28,328 bases of DNA from a virus: IMG/VR virus record IMGVR_UViG_3300029787_000134, positions 9,716-38,043 of that record; one strand, written 5' to 3'. Made by a program: the position numbers and the translations under genes. Shown here one piece after another: positions 1-15,858 of this stretch (position 1 is its first letter; every line of letters starts with the position of its first letter). The notes under the pieces were generated by a model. The model had not been told where the DNA came from. It worked only from the letters and a program-made list of their open reading frames with translations, and did not search any database.

Positions 1-3000
1 TATCGCATCGACTGTATTCTGTGGTACATCTAGTTTAAACACTAGATCAATGCCCTCTGTTTTAACAGAAGGCTGCGACATTGGTTCTGCTGCAGGTTCA
101 GCTGCTATATCTCTACCAGCTTCTTTTAATGCTTCAATAGATGTAGTAGACGTAGTTCTAGCCATGTCAACACCTAGACCCTTAAGTATATTACCTGTTC
201 TTAACTGAAGCGTATTAGGCAGCTGTAAATAAGCGCCAAACTCTACTCCTTTATTAGCTTCTCCTCTGTTTCTATACGTGTTAAATAACTTTAAAAACTC
301 AGTGTTATACACATAGTCTTTAAACATGTCTCTAGTTAAGTTAGAGCCAGGTATATCTTTATATGTTTTGTTTATATAGTTTTCTAATATACCTTCGTTG
401 TTGTTTCTAATTTGCTCAAATTTTCTAGACATTTTAAGTCTGTCAACTTCAGTAGCGTTTTCTAAATTAGCTTCAGATTCTAATATATCGTACTCCTTCA
501 TGAGCTCAACATTTTTTTCTGCAGCTTCAATATTCTTAGTTAGGTCTTGTATTTTAACAGTATTTGCTTTAGCTTTTTCTAAGTAGCCTTCAGGTTTGTT
601 TTTAACTAAATCTAAGTTTTCATTTTTAAGAGCATCACGTTCTGCTCTTAAGTCTCTAGACGCCATAACTTCAGGCTTAGTAGCATCTACATATTCAATA
701 CCTAAAAACGAAACATCTTGCAAATTAGCTAGCTTCTTAATCTTACCTTTAATACCTATACCTCTAGACGCGTCTGAGCCCATACGGCCTAGTAAATCTA
801 TAAAATCTTTAGCAGACATATCTTTCGTCATGTCTCTGCTAAACATCTTATCTATACCAGGCAACGTCTCTTCCATAAAGCTTTTAAACTCAGCTTTAGC
901 GTTCTTCATAAAAGTATTGTTTACTTGAGAGTAATATACTTCAGGATTAGATATAAACTCAGCTAGATTAGCTAGATACTCTTCTTGCCTCAACTCCATT
1001 TCTCTACGCTGAAAGTCTTGCAAGCTTTCGCCTTTTCTTTGCTCAGCTTTGTAACCTTTAAAAACAGCTGCTGAAAGACCTCCTTCTCCATAGAAATCGC
1101 TCATCATATCTTTGAGACCTTTACCGTAAGCTTCTTCAAACACTTGATCTAAACGTTCTTTAAACTTAACTTCTAACCTGTTGCCACTTTTACCTTTAAA
1201 CACCTGACGTAGCGCCATATGTATTAACTCGTGATTAGATTTACCTGATGTGTACTGTGATTTGTCAAATATAAGCTCGTTAGTAGCTGGATCAAACTCG
1301 GCTAAGTTACCTTCCTCCATAACTCTTCTAGCTTCTTTACCTTCTACAAATCTAACTGTAACTGGTTTTTGACCAGGGTTAGCTCTTTGCAACACGGCAT
1401 TAATAGGATCGAGTATTATTTTCTTATAATTAGCTTCAAAGTTTTTGTTAGGCGTACCGTCTGGATTTTTAACTGTTAGTGCTTTATCTCTTGTTTGAGC
1501 TGCAAAAAGATGATTAACGCTTTGAAGAGTTTCAGATAAATCTTTGACCCTTCTTTTCTGTATCGGGTTAAGATCTTTTAGTTCCATGTAGTTACTTTTA
1601 TTAGATTTTATTTCGTTTATATTAAAATCTAATAAAGTTTTTTCCATTTCATACTTAGCTTCGCTAATATTACCGTCTTTGTAATCTTTTACTAACTTAT
1701 CTCTTTCTTTTGTAAGCTCAACAAACTCTCTTTGAACTTCTGGCTTGCGCATTGCAGCGTCAATTTTATCAGATAAATTATTTCTAAGTCTAAGTTTAGC
1801 TGGAGCCGTTATATAAAAGTCTTGTGCTTTTAATCTATGCTTACCCATATTACCGGCAACAGAAAAAACAAGAGCATTAGTTATAACTCTTTGCTCAACC
1901 TCGTCCATATCTCCGTATAGTTCGTTAAGATGAAAATCAAAGTCTTTTTCACCCATAGCTGATTCAATAGCTAGCTCTGTAACACCTGCTAACTCACCTG
2001 ATGCGGCACCTACTACACCAGCCTTAACAGTCTTGTTCCATATAGCGTCAAAACCTTTTAGTCTTTTACTTAAAAAGCTAGGTCTAAACCAAGGCGTAGC
2101 TGCTCCACCAGCATAGAAAGCAGCTCCAGAACCTGTTTTAAATCCAGCTACTTTCATTTTAGCCTCTTCAATAGCTAGTTGAGCCATATGGTACTGAAGT
2201 TTTCCCCATATACCAGAGCTTTTTAAACGAGTTAAATATACACCCGCTCTACTTGCAGTTAAAACACCATTTGTAGCAACTGTAATAGCAGCTAACTCAA
2301 CTAATGTAGGCACAAACTCTCCAACTCCTACAGCTACGTTTTCACCTAAGTTTCTTTCAAAAGACTCAGCTTGATCTTCAGTCCAATTAAGCTGCGTCAT
2401 TTCACCTTTTTCTATAGCCTCTTTATTGTCTGCATTAAAGTCTATAGCTGCAGACTGTAGCGCGTCTAAAGTTCTTCTACGTCCAGCTCCACTGTACGCA
2501 CCAGTTGATTCTCTTGCTTCTCTTTCACTGTAGTCAAGCCATTGCGTTTTTACGGCTATAGTTCCTTCATCTATAATCCTCTCAACAAAAGAAACAGGTC
2601 CTGTAACTTTAGCTTCTATATCTTCTGGATCTATATCCAAGTAAGCCATATCAAATGCGGCTTTTCTTCTACCGTAATTTTCGTCTACAGCGTTTTCGTG
2701 AGATGATAAAGCTAACAAATCTTCTTCACTAAGTATAGCAAAAGACTTATCACCATCACCAACATCTCCATGAAGAATAGCAGTTGCAGCGTCTCTAATT
2801 ACAGCACTACCACCTGTAAAATATCTTGGATCAAAGCCTAAATCAAGCATTACGCCTACTGGCACTTCTAATCCTTTCCACGATCCATCGGTGTTAGTAG
2901 ATGTTCCATAAGCTTTATATCTTTCGTCGTCCCAATTTAAGTTAGGATTAGCATCTCTATGCCAGTCAATAATTCTTTGTCTACCAGCACCAGTCATATT

Positions 3001-4857
3001 ACTTAAGTTAACATTAACTGTACGCTCTGAGCCTGAGCTTTGTATAACTTGCTCTTCTAGTATTAAGTCTTCGTACCATTGAGACATTGCTTCACGCTGA
3101 GTCATGCCTGGGTTATTCTGCATAATAGCAGCAATCTCACTTTCTTTGTTTACCTCTGCATCTTTATACGCAGCTGCAACAGCTTTAGCTCTTTCCTCAC
3201 TAATACTAGCATCTTCTGAATCTCCACCTTCAAACAATCTACTAGCTAATTCCTCTTCGCCAATACCTAAAAAACTTTCAGCTGCATTTTCTGTTATGCG
3301 TCTGTCTATAACAGCTAAGCTTTTGTTAACTTCAGCTAGCTCTTTTTTCATGTCAGCTATAGCTCTTTTAGATAACGGTTTTGGATTATCACCTAAGCTA
3401 TAACCCGAGTCTATCATAGCCTGTAAATTTTTTCTTTTGTTTTCTAGTGGCCTAGCTTCCTGCACTAGCTCTACTTTATTTCTTTCAAGGTCTCTAGGTA
3501 GATCATCAAGCATGGATTGATGTGATTCATTTCTAAAATCTACATCAACCTCAGTGTTATCTTTAATGTTTTGAGAACGTTCTATTTTAAAGACCGTGCT
3601 CATAGCGTTTATTTCGTTTTCTAAAAAAGGACGGCCGTCTCCCATCAAAGCGTCAAACTGACTTCGACTTATCAGAAACCCAAACTCATTGTCTTCACGG
3701 TTTATTTTTTTAAAAACGTCTTCGTATAGTTTATCTTTTTCTTCGTCGCTAATCTCTAGTCTAGTACCTGCTTGGCTATTAAAAAGCTTTCTTATTTCTT
3801 GTCTAATAGTTTGTTTAGTAAAGTCTACGACTTCATTAAGCTCGCCAGGAGTTGCTGTTCGTTGTGCTTCTTCAATACGAACGTTCATTTCGTTACCTTG
3901 GCCAAAACTTCCTATATAACCACCTGTACCATCAGTTTGATCAAACGCCGATTGAAAGAAAGATCCGCGCATACCTGAGCTAGTAAACCCTTGAACACCC
4001 TGAGTTCCTTTAGGTATGATAGTTACTTTAGTTGTTGCAAGAGCGTCGTTGCCTGCTTTAGCGCCTGCTTCTTTTCTTTTAGCCCAACCTTCATCTTCAC
4101 CTTCAGCATCAGAGCTTTCAATAAAATCTATTATTTCTTGAAAATTTTCTATATCACCAGCGCCTCTAGTCCAGTCCATGTCAAGCGTTCTACCAAAACC
4201 CGAAGTAAATACTTTATATTTACCGTTTTTCTTATTACGCACTTTTATAGCGGCAACTCCTGGTGCCATAGCTTCAAACGTAAACCCTTCATTTGGATCG
4301 TCTGACCCGTATACTTCTTCTAAGTTTTCTATTCTTCCACTCTCTGAAAACCCAAAGCTATAATCATTATACTCCTCTTCAGTTATATGTCCTCTATTGC
4401 CTGTGTAATATTTGTTGTTAGCCTTTTCTTCTTTCTTTTTGTCTTGAGTCTCTACAACTTTACCTGATAAAGCTTTGTAGTCGATTTTGTCATTAACAAA
4501 ATCCTGCGCTACTTCAAGATCTATACCAAGAGCGTTTGCTATGGCCTGAGAGTTTTTGTTTTTCTTGTTTGTTATTACACCTGTAACAATACTTGGTTCA
4601 ACCCTAAGCATCCTAGCCATTTCAGCAGCCTGTTGCTTTTCTTCTTTACTTAACTCTAACGCAGAGGAAGGCTCTTCTCCATCTGACGCCCCTTGCTCCC
4701 CACTTGACGCTGGCTCTTCCGACCCAGTCCCTGCGTCTTGCTGTGGATCGTTTGCTTTTTTTGTGTTGTATCTCTCTATGGCTTGCTTAATTTCTTCAGG
4801 TCCGCCGCCTTGCTCTCTCACAGCATTAATTAATTGTTCTAATATAGGATCTGGCAT
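1..4857 (-). CDS. Giant virion/ejection protein with zincin-type metallopeptidase motif (C-terminus beyond window)
   Basis: The frame starts at the ATG at 4855-4857, one base after the TAA of the 434-residue gene, and stays open to base 1, giving 1619 residues and no stop. Residues 1-75 are acidic and Pro/Gln/Ser-rich. An Ala/Gly/Val-rich hydrophobic stretch lies near residues 843-870, with another around 943-965. A zincin-type HELIH sits at residues 1209-1213 (bases 1219-1233). A Glu-rich helix, QEEYLANLAEF at 1291-1301, could give the third zinc ligand. Residues about 1395-1490 look like a coiled coil. Giant internal proteins with zincin domains are known among crAss-like virion proteins and phage polyvalent proteins. 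The position after the gp14-like gene supports a protein packaged in the head and injected with DNA. Peptidase activity is inferred from the motif alone. The missing C-terminus may hold further domains, for example an RNA polymerase. Confidence 0.72.
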   Translation of the reverse strand, partial: MPDPILEQLINAVREQGGGPEEIKQAIERYNTKKANDPQQDAGTGSEEPASSGEQGASDGEEPSSALELSKEEKQQAAEMARMLRVEPSIVTGVITNKKNKNSQAIANALGIDLEVAQDFVNDKIDYKALSGKVVETQDKKKEEKANNKYYTGNRGHITEEEYNDYSFGFSESGRIENLEEVYGSDDPNEGFTFEAMAPGVAAIKVRNKKNGKYKVFTSGFGRTLDMDWTRGAGDIENFQEIIDFIESSDAEGEDEGWAKRKEAGAKAGNDALATTKVTIIPKGTQGVQGFTSSGMRGSFFQSAFDQTDGTGGYIGSFGQGNEMNVRIEEAQRTATPGELNEVVDFTKQTIRQEIRKLFNSQAGTRLEISDEEKDKLYEDVFKKINREDNEFGFLISRSQFDALMGDGRPFLENEINAMSTVFKIERSQNIKDNTEVDVDFRNESHQSMLDDLPRDLERNKVELVQEARPLENKRKNLQAMIDSGYSLGDNPKPLSKRAIADMKKELAEVNKSLAVIDRRITENAAESFLGIGEEELASRLFEGGDSEDASISEERAKAVAAAYKDAEVNKESEIAAIMQNNPGMTQREAMSQWYEDLILEEQVIQSSGSERTVNVNLSNMTGAGRQRIIDWHRDANPNLNWDDERYKAYGTSTNTDGSWKGLEVPVGVMLDLGFDPRYFTGGSAVIRDAATAILHGDVGDGDKSFAILSEEDLLALSSHENAVDENYGRRKAAFDMAYLDIDPEDIEAKVTGPVSFVERIIDEGTIAVKTQWLDYSEREARESTGAYSGAGRRRTLDALQSAAIDFNADNKEAIEKGEMTQLNWTEDQAESFERNLGENVAVGVGEFVPTLVELAAITVATNGVLTASRAGVYLTRLKSSGIWGKLQYHMAQLAIEEAKMKVAGFKTGSGAAFYAGGAATPWFRPSFLSKRLKGFDAIWNKTVKAGVVGAASGELAGVTELAIESAMGEKDFDFHLNELYGDMDEVEQRVITNALVFSVAGNMGKHRLKAQDFYITAPAKLRLRNNLSDKIDAAMRKPEVQREFVELTKERDKLVKDYKDGNISEAKYEMEKTLLDFNINEIKSNKSNYMELKDLNPIQKRRVKDLSETLQSVNHLFAAQTRDKALTVKNPDGTPNKNFEANYKKIILDPINAVLQRANPGQKPVTVRFVEGKEARRVMEEGNLAEFDPATNELIFDKSQYTSGKSNHELIHMALRQVFKGKSGNRLEVKFKERLDQVFEEAYGKGLKDMMSDFYGEGGLSAAVFKGYKAEQRKGESLQDFQRREMELRQEEYLANLAEFISNPEVYYSQVNNTFMKNAKAEFKSFMEETLPGIDKMFSRDMTKDMSAKDFIDLLGRMGSDASRGIGIKGKIKKLANLQDVSFLGIEYVDATKPEVMASRDLRAERDALKNENLDLVKNKPEGYLEKAKANTVKIQDLTKNIEAAEKNVELMKEYDILESEANLENATEVDRLKMSRKFEQIRNNNEGILENYINKTYKDIPGSNLTRDMFKDYVYNTEFLKLFNTYRNRGEANKGVEFGAYLQLPNTLQLRTGNILKGLGVDMARTTSTTSIEALKEAGRDIAAEPAAEPMSQPSVKTEGIDLVFKLDVPQNTVDAI

Positions 4858-4858
4858 A

Positions 4859-6163
4859 TTAACTTGCTTTTAATTCTCCGTTTGCAATCATCGCGTTAAC
4901 AACACTTTGCCCTACTTGAGCAACCATATCGGCCATGTCTGTGTAGCCGTACTGCTCAGGCGTATATGCTGTTTTTGTAGGAGCATTAGTTCGTTTTTTC
5001 TTTTCTTCTTTTGTTTCGTAAACAATCGTAGGTGTTGGAGGTCTACCTGCTCCGTTTTGAACTTGTATATCAGTGAGGTATGATCCAGCTAAAGCTGCTA
5101 AAGTTTTCTTGTGAACAAGCTTACCGTCATCACCTCTCTCTTCAAGAAGCACGTCAAATATTGCGTTTAACGCAGGCCCATCTAAACCTACTAAGTCTTC
5201 AGCATTAAAAACCCCATCATCATTTTTATCTAATACTTCGTTGTCAGTCTTTCCAAAATCAATATCTGCACCAACGTTAGCAGCGCTAACAACGTTTGGA
5301 TCATCACTTTCTACAAAAACAACTTTGCCATCAGAATTAACAGTAGCCCCAGTAAAAGCTTGAATCAAATCGTCTTTTAATGTTGATGCGCCACCAAACT
5401 GACCTTTATCAGTAAAAGTCTGAAGTAGTATATCTTCTTTTTCGTAGGCCTTTATGTTATTAGCTAGCGCTACATTGTAATTCCAGTTTTCAGGAAACGG
5501 ACCTGCAACAGCGTCTACAGAAGTTGTCATACCTGCTTGCGCTACTATTTCGTCGATGTCTCTAGTATAAACGTCTCTTTGCTCTCCGTTAACTGTCATA
5601 GTAAAATACATTTCACCTTGATCATTAAACTTTGGTTCTAGCGCGTTGCCACTACCATCTTGCTGAGATACCATTTGCTTCATTATATCAGAAGCTTCTG
5701 GGTGGTTTTTTAAATAGCCCTGGCTAAATAACTCACTACCGTGCATCTGAGCCATTATATCATAAGACTCTTTCCAGTCTACTAACGAAGCGCTTTGAGC
5801 TTTGTTTAAGTCAAGAAGCCTTGCTTGTTCTTGCGTGTCGCCATCTTGTACGGCTTGTAAGTATGCCTCTTGTCCATCTTGCTGAATCTGTATAACACTT
5901 TCTAAAGTTCCTCGCTTAGTCCAGTCAGATGTTCCGTCTAAATTTTGAGCTAACACTTGGTTAAGCTCATCAAGAGCTACGTCTTTAGCTTTCTCTCTTG
6001 TCTCTACACCAGTCTCTATTGTTTCAAGGCCTGAAATAGCTGTGTCAAAAATAGTTTTATCTCCTTCTTTTAATCGACCAGCTTCGTTGGCTCCTTTAAT
6101 TCTGTCAAGAGTTTTATCTCTTAATCCAAAGCGTAGTGTTGGTGATGATGCTTCTTTTGCCAT
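4859..6163 (-). CDS. Internal virion protein with EF-hand-like calcium loop
   Basis: This 434-residue acidic protein is mostly helical in its first 160 residues, without signal peptide or clear membrane helix. Residues 312-323 (DKNDDGVFNAED) match a canonical 12-residue EF-hand/dockerin calcium loop, with Asp/Asn at positions 1, 3 and 5, Gly at 6 and Asp at 12. Residues 384-391 form a short Lys/Glu-rich patch, followed by a Tyr-containing helical C-terminus. Its ATG overlaps the stop of the gp14-like gene by one base (TAATG at 6161-6165), so translation is probably coupled. It sits between two probable ejection proteins, which suggests a head-internal or ejected protein. I do not recognise a family over its whole length, and calcium binding is a motif-based inference. 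Confidence 0.65.
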   Translation of the reverse strand: MAKEASSPTLRFGLRDKTLDRIKGANEAGRLKEGDKTIFDTAISGLETIETGVETREKAKDVALDELNQVLAQNLDGTSDWTKRGTLESVIQIQQDGQEAYLQAVQDGDTQEQARLLDLNKAQSASLVDWKESYDIMAQMHGSELFSQGYLKNHPEASDIMKQMVSQQDGSGNALEPKFNDQGEMYFTMTVNGEQRDVYTRDIDEIVAQAGMTTSVDAVAGPFPENWNYNVALANNIKAYEKEDILLQTFTDKGQFGGASTLKDDLIQAFTGATVNSDGKVVFVESDDPNVVSAANVGADIDFGKTDNEVLDKNDDGVFNAEDLVGLDGPALNAIFDVLLEERGDDGKLVHKKTLAALAGSYLTDIQVQNGAGRPPTPTIVYETKEEKKKRTNAPTKTAYTPEQYGYTDMADMVAQVGQSVVNAMIANGELKAS

Positions 6164-6876
6164 TATGATGTAAATAGATTTTTAATTCCTGAAAACAATC
6201 CTCCGCTGCTATCAAAGTTTTTAATACCACTAAATAGATTTCCCATGCCTCCAGTGTTTCCAGCCATGTCATTAGCAGCGCTAAACATATTGCCTAATTG
6301 GCCTTGTCTTTGTTGGCCAAATAGTCTAGCATTTTCAGCTGATACAGCTTGTTGATCTGCAGATAGTCCCATTTGACTTTCAAGTATATCAAACTCAGCT
6401 TGTCTACTCATAATATCTCCAGACCTTTCAAGATCTTGTATTCTTCCAGCTTCCTTTAATGATTTTTCTTGTATCGAAGCCTCTTGCTTACCTATACTTG
6501 CAGCTGCTTTTTGCGCGTCTATACTACCTTGGTTTGCTAGCTGTTGCGCTAGCGCTGCTACTCCAGAAGCACCGGCACTTTGCCTGAGTCTATCTAATAT
6601 ATTAGCTCTACTTTGACCCTGCTGTTGGCGCATAAACTCTGCCTCTTGCTGGTTTATAGTCATGTCTTCATACATGTTCTCCATATTCATATATGGATTG
6701 CTTGTGTCCAGCATAGCATACTGATCCTGAAAGTCTTGAACTTTTTGTTTTTGTAAAGCTGCTTCTGCTGCCGCTGCTTTGGCTTTTTTCTTAGCTTTAC
6801 GGCTACCGAAAAAACCAAATATAGCTTTACCTATAGATATAGCTGCCTTGACCGTTGCTGGATTTACTGGTGCCAT
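6163..6876 (-). CDS. Putative internal core / DNA-ejection protein (T7 gp14-like in character)
   Basis: The protein has 237 residues. A short hydrophobic/amphipathic N-terminal helix (about residues 8-24, AAISIGKAIFGFFGS) is followed by a Lys/Ala-rich stretch, then a long Gln/Ala-rich helical body. The C-terminus is Gly/Ser/Phe-rich and carries the heptad LFSGIKN twice (residues 214-220 and 227-233). This composition is typical of small internal virion proteins that help form the trans-envelope channel in podoviruses. It starts downstream of a 55-base AT-rich gap holding an inverted repeat, and ends overlapping the next gene as TAATG. There is no Shine-Dalgarno sequence before the ATG. The role is inferred from composition and position, not from a catalytic motif. 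Confidence 0.6.
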   Translation of the reverse strand: MAPVNPATVKAAISIGKAIFGFFGSRKAKKKAKAAAAEAALQKQKVQDFQDQYAMLDTSNPYMNMENMYEDMTINQQEAEFMRQQQGQSRANILDRLRQSAGASGVAALAQQLANQGSIDAQKAAASIGKQEASIQEKSLKEAGRIQDLERSGDIMSRQAEFDILESQMGLSADQQAVSAENARLFGQQRQGQLGNMFSAANDMAGNTGGMGNLFSGIKNFDSSGGLFSGIKNLFTS

Positions 6877-9606: not shown

Positions 9607-12600
9607 TTAATCAGGTGTAGAGTCCCACGGTGTAGTAAGCCCTATGTTTCCAGAGTACGTAGTGCTAACGTTGTTAGCAACAGTTATAGTTAGAGGTAAA
9701 GTAAACCCAGTGTTTTCGTGAGTTATACCGGATGCTAAACCAATACCTTGAACAGAAAATTCTTTTTCATCTAAGTTATTTACAGTGGTTGAAGATCCTG
9801 TTGGAAAACCAAACCATTTGTTTTCTTTATTTATAAACTCTACGTTTTCACAGCTCTGTAAATTTGTTTCAATGCTTTCTATATACCAACCAAGCCTAGG
9901 ATTAAGATTAAAGTACTCGCCATCAGTTAAGTTAGTTGAGGCGTTAAGACCGTCGCTAGCTCCTGCAGTTGTACTAGTGTAATTGTTGTTTAAAAGCTGA
10001 GCCGCTTGTGTATCCCACTCGCTAACTCTAGCCTGTGATCCTTCGTACTCTACAGCTGTAAAGCTTTTTACAGAGCTAGGCATATCATTGAATATAACTG
10101 TTACATCTGAGTCGTATTGTACTCCGTAAAAGTTATTTCTTGGAGTTGAAAACTCTAATGTTTGAGCGTGGAACGTATCTTCTAAAGCCTTGCTTATAGT
10201 TATAGTGCTAGCACTTATAGATGTTATAACAGATCCATCAGAAACACCTTTACCTACTACAACCATACCTACTTTTATGTCTGCAGTTTGATTAACAGTA
10301 AACGTGTTAGTACTAGACCCTATTGGAGAAGCGGCTCTAGATATTACAGCATCATCGTGGTGTTGATAAATACAGCCGTTGTTAAATGTGTAGTAATTGT
10401 TGTTTATGCTAACACCATGTTCTGGTGTAAATGATTTAAAACTAGACCAGCCATTGACAGATTCGCTGAAGCTAACTGTTTCTTTAGTAGGAACAACTTG
10501 TGTAGCGTTTTCTTTTTTAAACGTAGTTACGTTGTATTCTTTTTTTCTTGTGTCGTAAGTGCCTAAAGCTTTAAAAACGTTTGAGCTAAACTTATCGTTA
10601 AAATAATCTCTCATACCTAAATTAGATATAGATCTAACACCTTCACCTGATAAAGATAATACTTCGCCTCTAACAACGTCTGTAAAGTAAGTTCTGTAAG
10701 GCGTAGAAACTAACGACTCTGGATTTTTAGATATACCAAAGTTTCCTTGATAAGCTCTTACATCTCCTATAACAGTGTTACTAGAAACCAATTGAGGTTT
10801 TCCATCAGCATTATACAAAGCGTCTTTGTTGGTAACAGCTCTTAGAACTTTATCTTCACAAAACATAACGAGAGATTGATCTCTAGTTTTAAGGGCTTGT
10901 ATACTGCCATGTATAGGGTTTAACTCTTTTGTTATACCTTCGGCAATAATAAACTGATTAGTATTGTTAGTTCCATTTATAGTATTGTATATACCAGAGT
11001 ATATTATTCCGTGCTTTCTTCTTTCTTCTTTGATCTGTGGATCAGCTGTTACGGTAGAAGCTTTAACTCCGTTATCAAGCTGAGGAGCGTTAAAGTCATC
11101 TCTAATTCTATCTGACTCTAAGCCATTACCAAAGCACCAGCAATTACTCCAATCAAGCACGTGTGTCTGATGAACTGGTTGGAAAACAGTAGGTGTAGTA
11201 CTCAAGTTCCCGTGCAGCGTCATCTCATCTATAGTGTTTAAACTATTTTCTGTGGTATTAGTAAGCTCTTGTGTAGTGTTGTAGTAATTACCTGTTAAAG
11301 AATAGTAATCTCTTTTTGTAAACGTTATATCATCGTTTTGAAATATAAAGCTTTCAGTTGTACCTGCGGGCGTAAACTTAAATTTGTTAGCACCAGTCCA
11401 CTCAGTTATAGCATGCGAAGTCGCTGCTTGAGCACCGTTAGGAGTTGTTGCATCATAATCATTTTTAATTTCAAACGAAGTACCTATAGGTAATAACTCT
11501 TCGTTAGTATAATCGTTTACGTTGATAGGTATTAAACCACTGGCTTGATAATATATATCTAGGTCAACAGAGTCTTTAGGTTCAGTTTCCCATATGCCAG
11601 GGTTTTCAACATACTGACCGCCAGCGTCATTTGATAAATCTGCTTTAAGTATTTGAATAGACTCTAAGGAGTCTCCTATTTGAGTACCGTCGTGTCTTAA
11701 CGCTCTCCTAAAGTTGTTATCTGTAGTTGCTGGACCAGTACTAGGATGAGTTCCATGTATAGGATTATATCCAGAATCGGTGCTACCTATTTTAGGAGTT
11801 ACCTTTAGAGTCCATCTCTGTCTAGCATTGTAGCCTCTGTATTGCCAGTGGTCGTCTAATGTGTAAAAGTTTCTTATACCCCACGCGCCTGTCCAGTAAG
11901 TAATATACTCATTGTCCCAAGGACCATTTGGAAATACCATTCCATATCCAAACTCTGCTTGGTTTTCAAAGCTTAACACCGTATAAATAGTAGCGTCTGG
12001 ATCTCTTTTAAACTTAAATTTAGTTCCAGGTGTAGTTAACTGCTTTATAAACAACCAATGGCTTTCATAGTTCTGAGGGTCTAAACTAGACATAGACTCT
12101 AGTCTCAAAGGAAAAGGCCAGCCTAATATAGCCTGGTTTGTACTAAAGCTTAAGTCATCTGTTGGGTCATCAGGCGTGTTGTTTATGTCTTCATTATAGC
12201 CAGACCCCATACCGCTCCATGATATATCTATAAGAGAAAACGAATCATTAGTTCCCCATATACCTCTGCTTGGCTGACCTTTACCCGTGTTGAAAGCGCC
12301 TGGCTTTGCACCTAAGTTAGCAAAGTCTTCTGAAAAATACGGTAAATCCCCTGCTTCACCTAAACCCATCACCGATCCACCTAGTGGATTCAAACCACCG
12401 TTATCAGGGTTAGGAGTATCTACGTGCCAGTCTCTCCAGAACTGATCTACCTGATATACTGGACCTTCGTTTGAACTTGCTGGAACTGTTAAGTCATTAA
12501 GTGGTAATCCAAATGTTTCACCACCAGGTTCTGTTGAAGTAAAATCGTACTCATTACCAGGATAATCACCATCTTTACTAGTCAATGAATACGCGGTACA

Positions 12601-15600
12601 GGCATCAATAAAGAATTGACCTTCATTCACGCACTTGCTAGCAATGTCTTTCCAAAAATCTTTTATATCATCATATGACTCGTAAGCATTGCCATATCCG
12701 TTTAAGGCTTTAACTGGATGCTTTCTAACGTGAGCGCCAGTTACGCCAACTACATCGTTTCCAGTGGTGTTTACGTTACTAGCGTTTGCGTCAGTTCCGT
12801 TGCCCCAGTAGTAAGAAGTTTGACCGCCCCAAGTGTACTCTGTTGGGTGCTTGTCTAAGTCGTTGTCGTCATAGTTAGGGGTTCTAGGATTTAAATATCT
12901 TGGATGCACGTTACAAACCCCATCAGCTCCACCACCTGTTATGGTGCCTGAGTTCATGTAACCATTGTTATTTATATACCCTAACGGTGTAGCCTTATCT
13001 ATTAACGTATAGTTATTAGTACCTGTAGTAAGTATAACGTTATCTATAATATCAATGTCTCTATGTATTTTAACAAAGAACTTTCCTTCAAATTCAGGCT
13101 TGTTTTCAACTTCTTTTTTAAATATATCTATAGAAAAACCACCATCAGTAACGTTTGAACCAGCTGTTTGATCGAACTGTATCCAAGCTGTATCCTCACC
13201 AAATTCTTTTCTTAAAGTAATTTTATAACCTTCTGCGTCTGAGATAAAGCTTATTTTAACTATTTCATAGTCCTCTGTAGTTTCTCCATCTCCTCCAATA
13301 AACTTAATAAACGTTTTCTTTGGCTGCTCAGGTATTGCCCACTGAAAACCACCACCATCAAGCTGTGTTCCATACGCGCTTTCAAACTCAGTTGCAGGTA
13401 TAGTAATTACTTTTGATCCAATCATAGAAGAGCTATCAGCTAATGGATTAGTTATAGCACTAGTTTCATCAACAATTCCAAAGCTCGCAATAAAAGTTTT
13501 AAGCACGTCAGGTGCCTCGTTTTCTATGGCTAGTATCTTATATCTAGCTTTGCTAGTAACAGGTGAGTTGACACCATGCTTACCTTTTAAGGTTATGAAA
13601 GTATTTTCGTCAACCTTGTTTCTTTCAGAAGAAGGAAACGATATCCATATATTTCCGTCTTCAGCATTGTACCACCTGTCCATAATAAGTGTGTAATACT
13701 CAGCTGAAGTTTCTTTTACATAAAAAGAATAATGAGTGGCCCAGTTTGGTATAGAACCTGTTGGACTTAGCTTTACCTTTAATCTATTTCTTTTTGCGCA
13801 ATAAGATTTAGGCACTCTAATAGAGGATTTTTTACTAGTAAGCACTGGTGTTTCTCTACCGTATTTATCACTAAACACTACACCAACTTGATATGAGCGC
13901 ATAGACTTAACAGATGGTAGTGCATAATTAGAGCCTTGTTCGTACAAAGAACTTCCTTCGATGCTTAGTAAAAGATTAGGATCTCCTAGCGTGTTATAGT
14001 TTTGCAAGTAGTTACCGTATATTAAACGGTTAGCAGATATCTCTTGCGCCAAAGCTTTACGCGGAACATTGTCAAAGACTCTAAGCAACTGGTCACTAGG
14101 TACAACAGCGTGGATCATGTCTGTAGTAACTTCAAAAGAACCTCGATTATGGGGATACTCTGCTAAATCTGGCCAAGAAGGATTTCCGTCTATGCTTTTA
14201 ATAGTCTTTACAGTATAGACTGCTGGGCTGTTTGTTTCTTTGTAAAGAAGATCGATCTCAACTACGTCGTGAGGCATAGCTAATTCTTTAGCGTAATACC
14301 CTTTTAGAGTTAAGCCTCTTAGTTGATTAGACATGCCTAAATTATAACCATTTTCATGGTCATAAGAAAAGCTGTCAGGTAAAAAAGCTACTTGAGAAAA
14401 CGGAGCAAACGTAGAGTATTCGCCATCTTGATACTTGTATCTATAAGAAAACCTAGGAAACTTGTATTCAAACAAAGGCTCTTTACCTTCTATTCTAACA
14501 TACCAAGAAGTAGTTGTACTTGTTACAGCTTCGTTTAGCTCTTGTATTTCTATAACAAAACCTTCAAAGTGTAAAGTGTTCGGGTCTGAAACTGGACTAG
14601 CTATTACTAACGCCCTTATAACATAATCATCTTCGTTTGCGGCATCTGTATTAGTTTCATTTGGGCTAAACAATAACACGTCTCCAACTCGTATGTCAAC
14701 TAAAGTTGTAAACGTATTGATAGTAAATATAGATCCAGCGGTTGGTAATATACCTGTTATATCTGACTCTTCAAAAAAGTTAAAAGGATTTACTTCAAGC
14801 TCAGATATAGGATTAATAGTTCCGTCTTCTTGAGTTCTTGGCGTTTCTGTCCTACTCATAACCAGCTCTAGCGGTTGAGTAGGAGATATTCTAATAACAG
14901 TAGCGTGTTTCTCTTCTACGTATACAGCTCGCTTTTTATCTGCAAAAGTAACAACGTTATATTCGCTTGCGAATTCTTGAGAGCTTATTACTAGTCTAGT
15001 GTGAAAATAATCAGTGTCTCCTATAAACGTATTACTAGTGTCAGTCGTAGTAGCAGAGGCAAAACCTGCTGTACCACCTCCAATTAAATATTCTGTACCA
15101 CCAGTTCCTAATATAGATCTTGTAATACTTATTTTCTTAGGCTCGCAAAAGTTATCTGTCCAAAAAATAAAGTCATCAAGAATATTTAATCCAGTTATTA
15201 ACCTATCTTTTTTAAAGTTTAATACTCGATCTTTTGATTTAAAATGTATAGTAGTAGTAGCGTCAGGTATAGCCACTGACTCGCTAAGCGTAACCTCCCA
15301 GTTGTTTGAAGTGTATCTTATACTAGTGACTGTTATGTTGTCACTTAAAGAAATGTTTTGAGAAGAACAAGTATAATGCATACCTATTCTTATACCTGTT
15401 TTATTTATACTTACACCTGCTCCAGCAGAGACATTGAAAGTAGTTCCAGTTACTGAGCCTGTGGCAGTAGTCTTAACGTCGTATATATCTACAAAGACAT
15501 ATTTAAGAGTTTCTTTGTTAAAGTCATATTCAAGTATATAATCTTTACGTAAGTCTACAAAAGTATTAGAGTTGTTTTTATCTCCAGCAGATACGAAATA

Positions 15601-15858
15601 ATATATTTTATCTTTATCAGGGGCTGCAATCGAGCCCACGCATGTAGCCGTATCAGGTACGCCATAATGACCATCTGGGTTATCCATGGCATTGTGCTTA
15701 ACATTACCTAAAAGAGTTTGCAATGCTCCTACATCGTCGTTATCTGATGTTGCTACTTGTATATTTTTAGCATCTCTATATTCGCCTTTTGAAATAATCC
15801 TCTCATCGAGGTCTTTATTCATCTTGCCTTTAGAGAAGTTAGTTGTTAACTTCGCCAT
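9607..15858 (-). CDS. Giant tail stabilisation / 'muzzle' protein (P22 gp10-like position, crAss-like)
   Basis: This 2083-residue protein is the largest complete gene in the window. The N-terminus contains NKDLDERIISKGEYRDAKN (residues 14-32), a pattern I associate with tail-closure/stabilisation proteins of crAss-like and related podoviruses. Most of the rest is beta-rich and Asn/Thr/Ser/Gly-rich with many aromatics. A conserved-looking core around residues 1570-1760 includes WSNCWCFGNG and a segment reading like propeller blades (KVLRAVTNKDALY, YFTDVVRGEVLSLSG). Two VGMxV-type modules occur near residues 150-210 and 1858-1900. It begins three bases after the stop of the second connector gene, the usual place for the protein that caps the connector and forms the short tail nozzle. 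It is large for this role, and residues about 950-1550 may be insertions. The identification rests on motif, size and order. Confidence 0.65.
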   Translation of the reverse strand: MAKLTTNFSKGKMNKDLDERIISKGEYRDAKNIQVATSDNDDVGALQTLLGNVKHNAMDNPDGHYGVPDTATCVGSIAAPDKDKIYYFVSAGDKNNSNTFVDLRKDYILEYDFNKETLKYVFVDIYDVKTTATGSVTGTTFNVSAGAGVSINKTGIRIGMHYTCSSQNISLSDNITVTSIRYTSNNWEVTLSESVAIPDATTTIHFKSKDRVLNFKKDRLITGLNILDDFIFWTDNFCEPKKISITRSILGTGGTEYLIGGGTAGFASATTTDTSNTFIGDTDYFHTRLVISSQEFASEYNVVTFADKKRAVYVEEKHATVIRISPTQPLELVMSRTETPRTQEDGTINPISELEVNPFNFFEESDITGILPTAGSIFTINTFTTLVDIRVGDVLLFSPNETNTDAANEDDYVIRALVIASPVSDPNTLHFEGFVIEIQELNEAVTSTTTSWYVRIEGKEPLFEYKFPRFSYRYKYQDGEYSTFAPFSQVAFLPDSFSYDHENGYNLGMSNQLRGLTLKGYYAKELAMPHDVVEIDLLYKETNSPAVYTVKTIKSIDGNPSWPDLAEYPHNRGSFEVTTDMIHAVVPSDQLLRVFDNVPRKALAQEISANRLIYGNYLQNYNTLGDPNLLLSIEGSSLYEQGSNYALPSVKSMRSYQVGVVFSDKYGRETPVLTSKKSSIRVPKSYCAKRNRLKVKLSPTGSIPNWATHYSFYVKETSAEYYTLIMDRWYNAEDGNIWISFPSSERNKVDENTFITLKGKHGVNSPVTSKARYKILAIENEAPDVLKTFIASFGIVDETSAITNPLADSSSMIGSKVITIPATEFESAYGTQLDGGGFQWAIPEQPKKTFIKFIGGDGETTEDYEIVKISFISDAEGYKITLRKEFGEDTAWIQFDQTAGSNVTDGGFSIDIFKKEVENKPEFEGKFFVKIHRDIDIIDNVILTTGTNNYTLIDKATPLGYINNNGYMNSGTITGGGADGVCNVHPRYLNPRTPNYDDNDLDKHPTEYTWGGQTSYYWGNGTDANASNVNTTGNDVVGVTGAHVRKHPVKALNGYGNAYESYDDIKDFWKDIASKCVNEGQFFIDACTAYSLTSKDGDYPGNEYDFTSTEPGGETFGLPLNDLTVPASSNEGPVYQVDQFWRDWHVDTPNPDNGGLNPLGGSVMGLGEAGDLPYFSEDFANLGAKPGAFNTGKGQPSRGIWGTNDSFSLIDISWSGMGSGYNEDINNTPDDPTDDLSFSTNQAILGWPFPLRLESMSSLDPQNYESHWLFIKQLTTPGTKFKFKRDPDATIYTVLSFENQAEFGYGMVFPNGPWDNEYITYWTGAWGIRNFYTLDDHWQYRGYNARQRWTLKVTPKIGSTDSGYNPIHGTHPSTGPATTDNNFRRALRHDGTQIGDSLESIQILKADLSNDAGGQYVENPGIWETEPKDSVDLDIYYQASGLIPINVNDYTNEELLPIGTSFEIKNDYDATTPNGAQAATSHAITEWTGANKFKFTPAGTTESFIFQNDDITFTKRDYYSLTGNYYNTTQELTNTTENSLNTIDEMTLHGNLSTTPTVFQPVHQTHVLDWSNCWCFGNGLESDRIRDDFNAPQLDNGVKASTVTADPQIKEERRKHGIIYSGIYNTINGTNNTNQFIIAEGITKELNPIHGSIQALKTRDQSLVMFCEDKVLRAVTNKDALYNADGKPQLVSSNTVIGDVRAYQGNFGISKNPESLVSTPYRTYFTDVVRGEVLSLSGEGVRSISNLGMRDYFNDKFSSNVFKALGTYDTRKKEYNVTTFKKENATQVVPTKETVSFSESVNGWSSFKSFTPEHGVSINNNYYTFNNGCIYQHHDDAVISRAASPIGSSTNTFTVNQTADIKVGMVVVGKGVSDGSVITSISASTITISKALEDTFHAQTLEFSTPRNNFYGVQYDSDVTVIFNDMPSSVKSFTAVEYEGSQARVSEWDTQAAQLLNNNYTSTTAGASDGLNASTNLTDGEYFNLNPRLGWYIESIETNLQSCENVEFINKENKWFGFPTGSSTTVNNLDEKEFSVQGIGLASGITHENTGFTLPLTITVANNVSTTYSGNIGLTTPWDSTPD

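Follow-up and report, generated by a model that had tools for sequence, protein, structure and literature searches.

In 2017, zincin domains were described within giant phage proteins that are injected; the vRNAP of phage N4 was a founding case, and autoproteolysis was proposed as a role for them (Iyer et al., 2017; PMC5512222). The main text of that study names neither crAss-like nor Cellulophaga phages. The N4 vRNAP, gp50 (NC_008720), is a 3500-aa protein encoded third in its ejection operon, and its zincin (the C1 domain; PMC12633501) has HELVH at residue 2228 and the corresponding Glu at residue 2310. N4 gp52, gp51, and gp50 together form an ejection channel and its cargo (PMC12633501). 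Giant ejection proteins are nevertheless among the least understood proteins of phages.

The window, i.e., the whole stretch of viral DNA that was analyzed (28,328 nt), makes up the right-hand three quarters of an IMG/VR record of 38,043 bases (IMGVR_UViG_3300029787_000134, labelled L002 or G000). Its terminase, portal, and capsid proteins matched PHROG structural families in profile searches, and a 2083-aa protein contains the C-terminal domain of the crAssvirus muzzle protein. The terminase has its relatives in Flavobacterium elemoviruses, in Cellulophaga, Tenacibaculum, and Maribacter phages, and in an uncultured podovirus from Manatee Spring; from these relatives, the hosts are most likely Bacteroidota. 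Within host-genome contigs, the C-terminus of the giant protein considered below found matches only in MAG contigs, many of Bacteroidota plus scattered phyla, which is suggestive and agrees loosely with such a host. Four genes of the window, given in window coordinates, are needed here.

9607-15858, minus strand: crAss-type muzzle-like tail protein, the synteny anchor (Pfam PF25729, E 3.4e-8; phrog_14478)
6163-6876, minus strand: 237-aa gene, the "small" member of the presumed ejection triad (homologous to phi18:3 gp120, elemovirus gp20, and phi38:1 gp99)
4859-6163, minus strand: 434-aa gene directly upstream of the giant gene, the presumed "medium" member of the triad, from gene order
1-4857, minus strand: N-terminal 1619 residues of the giant protein, whose ORF starts at 4857

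The first-pass annotation had put the giant at more than 1619 residues, and rightly so: when the flank of the same record is added, the complete ORF extends to 3213 residues (L002/G000:4931-14572, minus strand). The gene crosses a 10-N scaffold gap (L002:9706-9715) exactly at the window edge, and its continuity across this gap is credible because a relative, L126, has a single unbroken ORF of 3247 aa that aligns with the window giant over its full length (55.6%). With the 1619-residue part as the query, neither tblastn against phages nor a single-protein scan of viral contigs returned a match. Split giant genes are seen in L137, L145, and L156; we rejected these splits as evidence of natural cleavage sites because L137 duplicates the same residues at both break ends and L160 carries the L156 protein unbroken, as expected of assembly errors. 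A second 10-N gap lies at L002:1372-1381. The region left of the window that adjoins the giant gene (L002:710-4949) encodes a protein whose C-terminal tail resembles a T9SS sorting domain, together with a secreted protein of beta-barrel-like type and a thioredoxin-like protein, and may represent either host-like cargo or a scaffolding chimera.

The genes that precede the giant lie in the order small, medium, giant, which is also the order of gp14-gp15-gp16 in T7 and of gp52-gp51-gp50 in N4. The 237-aa protein matched phi18:3 gp120 (E 1e-40), elemovirus gp20 (3e-34), and phi38:1 gp99 (3e-32), and phi18:3 gp120 is noted in its annotation as a virion protein detected by MS/MS; the 434-aa protein showed no sequence link to the reference proteins. 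The N4-like gene order and the homology to phi18:3 gp120 support the DNA-ejection position that had been claimed for the giant. The virion evidence consists of MS notes on syntenic, non-alignable giants of relatives, and we infer packaging and ejection of the window giant.

The putative catalytic domain of the giant is defined by the following features, again in window coordinates.

826-1467, minus strand: predicted zincin-like metallopeptidase domain, residues 1131-1344 (AlphaFold2 model; alignment A5)
1219-1233, minus strand: HELIH, residues 1209-1213, with two predicted zinc-ligand His and the general-base Glu (from the sequence; HELVH in L126 and L131)
955-984, minus strand: EEYLANLAEF helix, residues 1292-1301 (from the sequence; helix 149-173 of the A5 model corresponds to residues 1279-1303)
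979-981, minus strand: E1293, the predicted third zinc ligand (invariant in 57/57 aligned domains)
958-960, minus strand: E1300, in the same helix, seven residues past E1293 (acidic, E or D, in 55/56 domains)

HELIH is found at the residues and on the strand where the first-pass annotation had read it. The EEYLANLAEF helix had been placed about 80 residues downstream, which agrees with a spacing of 84 residues between H1209 and E1293 (82 in N4 vRNAP), but the edge given for it, position 976, has to be corrected, as the helix extends slightly outside it. E1300 is probably a second-shell residue. The corresponding motifs read HELVHAALRQV...EEFLANLAEF in L126 and HELVHAALRQV...EEFLSNLAEF in L131, whose domains are 49% and 40% identical to that of the window, respectively.

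AlphaFold2 modelled residues 1131-1344 from 47 family sequences with a pLDDT of 85 and a pTM of 0.76. In A5 numbering, the model runs from a helix (10-29) through three strands (37-41, 56-59, and 64-68) to the helix that carries the motif (74-89, with HELIH at 79-83), then through a helical insert to a helix (149-173) with the Glu at 163; the N-terminal helix and three-stranded sheet before the HExxH helix are thus present, and a longer construct gave the same core. The modelled topology is the published order for the zincin-like MPTases of polyvalent proteins, namely N-terminal helix, three-stranded sheet, HEXXH helix, variable insert, and ligand-Glu helix (PMC5512222). Foldseek found nothing at E<=0.001 in the PDB, where the zincins IrrE/PprI, jannalysin/selecase, and collagenase G were among the weak top matches. 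In the viral library, giant phage proteins ranked highest, among them a large-polyvalent-domain protein and, at probability 1.00, a structural protein of an elemovirus. The earlier reading of a gluzincin-like HExxH...E site, with the Glu that it had pointed out, is supported by the invariant E1293 and by the three-strand, two-helix zincin topology of the model. Judging from sequence and model together, the window giant very probably carries a zinc-protease domain of the zincin-like, gluzincin type.

No significant match to the zincin domain was found among Pfam, PHROG, and PDB-sequence profiles, and its relatives were recognized by profiles built from the family itself. A profile made from part of the family found the domain in full records that had not been used for training (G005, G008, G014, G024, G027, and G033) at E values of 1e-15 to 1e-60, and family profiles also recognized the zincin in elemovirus gp18 (HEIFH; hhalign 95%) and in the giant of MW202828 (90%). 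When the window was left out of the profile, its protein was unlisted at E<=10 in the full multi-sequence search; when the window was searched alone with the same profile, the HELIH region was the best domain (i-E 4e-5; hhalign 89.5%). By its sequence, the window domain is divergent, and its link to the family rests on the intermediates L126, L131, and L137.

A scan with the muzzle protein retrieved 80 relatives, in which the giant ORF downstream of the muzzle gene nearly always has one HExxH, though the giants barely align by BLASTP. The motif was present in 35 of 40 homologous or syntenic giants, against 0.61 expected from composition (the sequences are related and so no p-value is given), and the expectation for the window giant is 0.016; as a control, none of the 78 muzzle-like proteins from these phages carries it, against 1.66 expected. 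The five negatives in the set of 40 include L121, which is probably a muzzle protein, and L120, which is cut by the record end. In an independent scan that started from the C-terminus of the giant, 29 of the 38 loci retrieved have HExxH; the other nine are three truncated loci, L137 with HEMIGH, L143, L152, and L153 with EExxH, and L144 and L149, which have no such domain. The closest full-length homologues thus keep the motif pair (HELVH...EEF in L126 and L131), and it is at the fringe of the family that the domain is altered or missing. Because L144 and L149 have no domain and three giants have EExxH, the zincin appears to be dispensable in some lineages. The HEMIGH of L137, whose giant shares 29% identity with that of the window, is an HExxxH form. 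The EExxH variants read EELFH and EEVFH, with the first His replaced by Glu, and that of L152 keeps the downstream Glu; their metal sites would be either inactive or altered.

Outside the conserved C-terminus the giants are strongly diverged, and most N-terminal halves barely align. The domains were picked by HExxH, so that the H, E, and H columns are invariant by construction, and E1293 lies outside this selection; its invariance comes from an L-INS-i alignment in which row L140 may be misaligned at the Glu. In alignment A5, with 47 trimmed domains, the only invariant columns are H79, E80, H83, and E163, in a family with a mean column identity of 15-18%. By these counts, the HELIH motif is beyond chance.

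A C-terminal module of about 670 residues (2426-3103 in the window giant) is common to the giants; in the IMG/VR set, nearly all of the complete ones matched it with E values below 1e-200. The module had no significant match in Pfam or PHROG, and its HMM found no match in phi18:3, phi38:1, crAss001, or phi14:2; by its sequence, it seems to be an undescribed domain, better conserved than the remainder of the giant. There are 77 near-invariant residues within residues 2425-3110 (L002:5243-7300, minus strand, outside the window). Upstream of this module, many members have a HAD-like DFDDT motif (residue 2282 in the window giant, also outside the window), which reads WDFDDTLA in the window giant and FDFDETLI in many relatives; the segment weakly matched the polynucleotide kinase family phrog_415 (E 0.001) and is probably a second enzyme in the giant. 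After the module, some giants have paired CxxxxxxG..C..C..H fingers. At the 3' end of the window giant (about residues 3140-3213), two tandem CxxxxxxGxxC...C..H fingers resemble DUF5763 and are absent from some relatives. Nearly every giant has exactly one zincin domain, which always precedes the HAD-like segment and the C-terminal module in those giants that contain them.

Compared with L126, the window giant is 84-92% identical towards the C-terminus, 36-48% identical in the segments that cover the zincin, and 18-32% identical over its first 900 residues. In a comparison of four close relatives, the zincin had a dN/dS of 0.12-0.24, the sequence upstream of it 0.31-0.38, and the C-terminus 0.07-0.09; on these codon comparisons the zincin domain is under purifying selection. 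From the identity gradient and the dN/dS values together, the catalytic quartet appears to be retained in a changing part of the giant. In L127-L130, the C-terminal 950 residues are 71% identical to those of the window giant and the N-terminal two thirds about 20%, a pattern suggesting module exchange near residue 2240.

We propose that the giant is the third and largest ejection protein of a podovirus, in the position of T7 gp16 and N4 gp50, and that it would be packaged and then delivered with the genome via a channel of the small and medium proteins. Residues ~1131-1344 would form a gluzincin-type metallopeptidase, with H1209, H1213, and E1293 as ligands and E1210 as the general base, which would work during or after delivery. 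As our first choice, cleavage in cis would detach the conserved C-terminal half of the giant from its variable N-terminal half, and the released half would contain the HAD-like segment, the 670-residue module, and the zinc fingers. In our judgment, it is somewhat more probable than not that the domain works as a metalloprotease, either during entry or after it; we infer metal binding, activity, and substrate. A different substrate is possible, although we give it well under an even chance as a complete account: the giant could stay intact as an ejected effector whose domain cleaves a cytoplasmic or envelope protein of the host early in infection. The domain sits in the fast-evolving N-terminal part, its surfaces diverge while the catalytic quartet is fixed, as expected for a host-facing protease, and a few lineages lack the domain or have an altered form of it, as would suit an accessory function; an effector role has also been proposed for polyvalent MPTases generally (PMC5512222). 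However, a single domain per giant, always before the HAD-like segment and the C-terminal module, fits an intraprotein role at least equally well. As targets taken by themselves, host-protein cleavage is nearly as likely as cleavage in cis.

The protease might also act earlier and cut the giant or other ejection proteins within the procapsid, either ahead of packaging or in its course. Such a role has been proposed for P1 DdrB, which undergoes processing prior to packaging and bears an MPTase at its C-terminus (PMC5512222). We consider this quite unlikely: N4 vRNAP also has a domain of this kind, yet is encapsidated full length and unprocessed (PMC5512222), which argues against obligatory self-cleavage before packaging, and the split genes, which look like assembly errors, do not help it. 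Slightly less improbable is a catalytically retired domain, whose zincin fold would serve packaging or regulation of the giant in the manner of the C-terminal region of N4 vRNAP: the MPTase-bearing region of the N4 protein is needed for encapsidation (PMC5512222), its CTD is autoinhibitory (PMC12633501), and EExxH variants exist in the present family. The strict invariance of four catalytic residues in about 57 highly diverged domains is, however, hard to explain without metal chemistry. That HExxH arose by chance in a large alpha-helical protein is barely credible, even given the shortness of the motif and the lack of a significant family match for the window sequence by itself; we rejected it on the conservation counts (35/40 versus 0.61 expected), the invariance of E1293 (57/57), the HELVH...EEF of L126 and L131, and the fold topology.

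Compared with the polyvalent-protein MPTases, the working metalloprotease proposed here likewise lies within giant multidomain phage proteins thought to be injected, and HEXXXH variants, here represented by L137, have also been described among them (PMC5512222). As to the polyvalent-protein trait of several unrelated enzymatic domains in one injected polypeptide, the window giant has the predicted zincin and the HAD-like DFDDT motif with its weak phrog_415 match. Unlike those MPTases, the window family adds the E/D seven residues past the ligand Glu and has no significant match in Pfam or PHROG. With N4 vRNAP, profile similarity is confined to the 17-residue motif helix (hhalign 2-7%), and no RNA polymerase domain was matched in the 3213-aa giant in Pfam or PHROGs, unlike N4 vRNAP. 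In the Crassvirales, crAss001 gp47 (HEAFH at 2157) and phi14:2 g065 (HEIMH at 245) are large virion cargo proteins detected by MS with one HExxH each; their similarity to the window domain is again confined to the motif helix, and common descent of these motifs with the window domain found no support in profile comparisons. Giant proteins are also encoded by the last gene of the same virion block in phi18:3 (gp123; Pachyviridae) and phi38:1 (gp101; Pervagoviridae), annotated from MS/MS directly or via similarity, but unlike the window giant these have no HExxH and no zincin profile match. Elemovirus gp18 and the giant of MW202828 (UOF82488) are syntenic giants beside homologous tail genes; the zincin is recognized in both, and they have no detectable 670-residue C-terminal module.

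The window family therefore looks, from its sequences, like a new and broad branch of a known kind of zincin, with the domain in most related giants, and its predicted active site is almost the sole strictly conserved feature of the fast-evolving part of the giant in many, mostly marine, Bacteroidota-type phages. As a tentative and rather doubtful extension, the zincin may be a general and ancient part of the third ejection protein in phages with short tails (elemoviruses, crAssviruses, N4-like phages, and the present group), kept through near-complete sequence turnover for a common step of genome entry; if so, this step could be one in which the C-terminal enzyme module is set free from the portion of the giant that is bound to the membrane. 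The cultured elemoviruses of Flavobacterium sp. BAL314 make the old proposal testable, namely that phage zincins process or deploy injected polyproteins.
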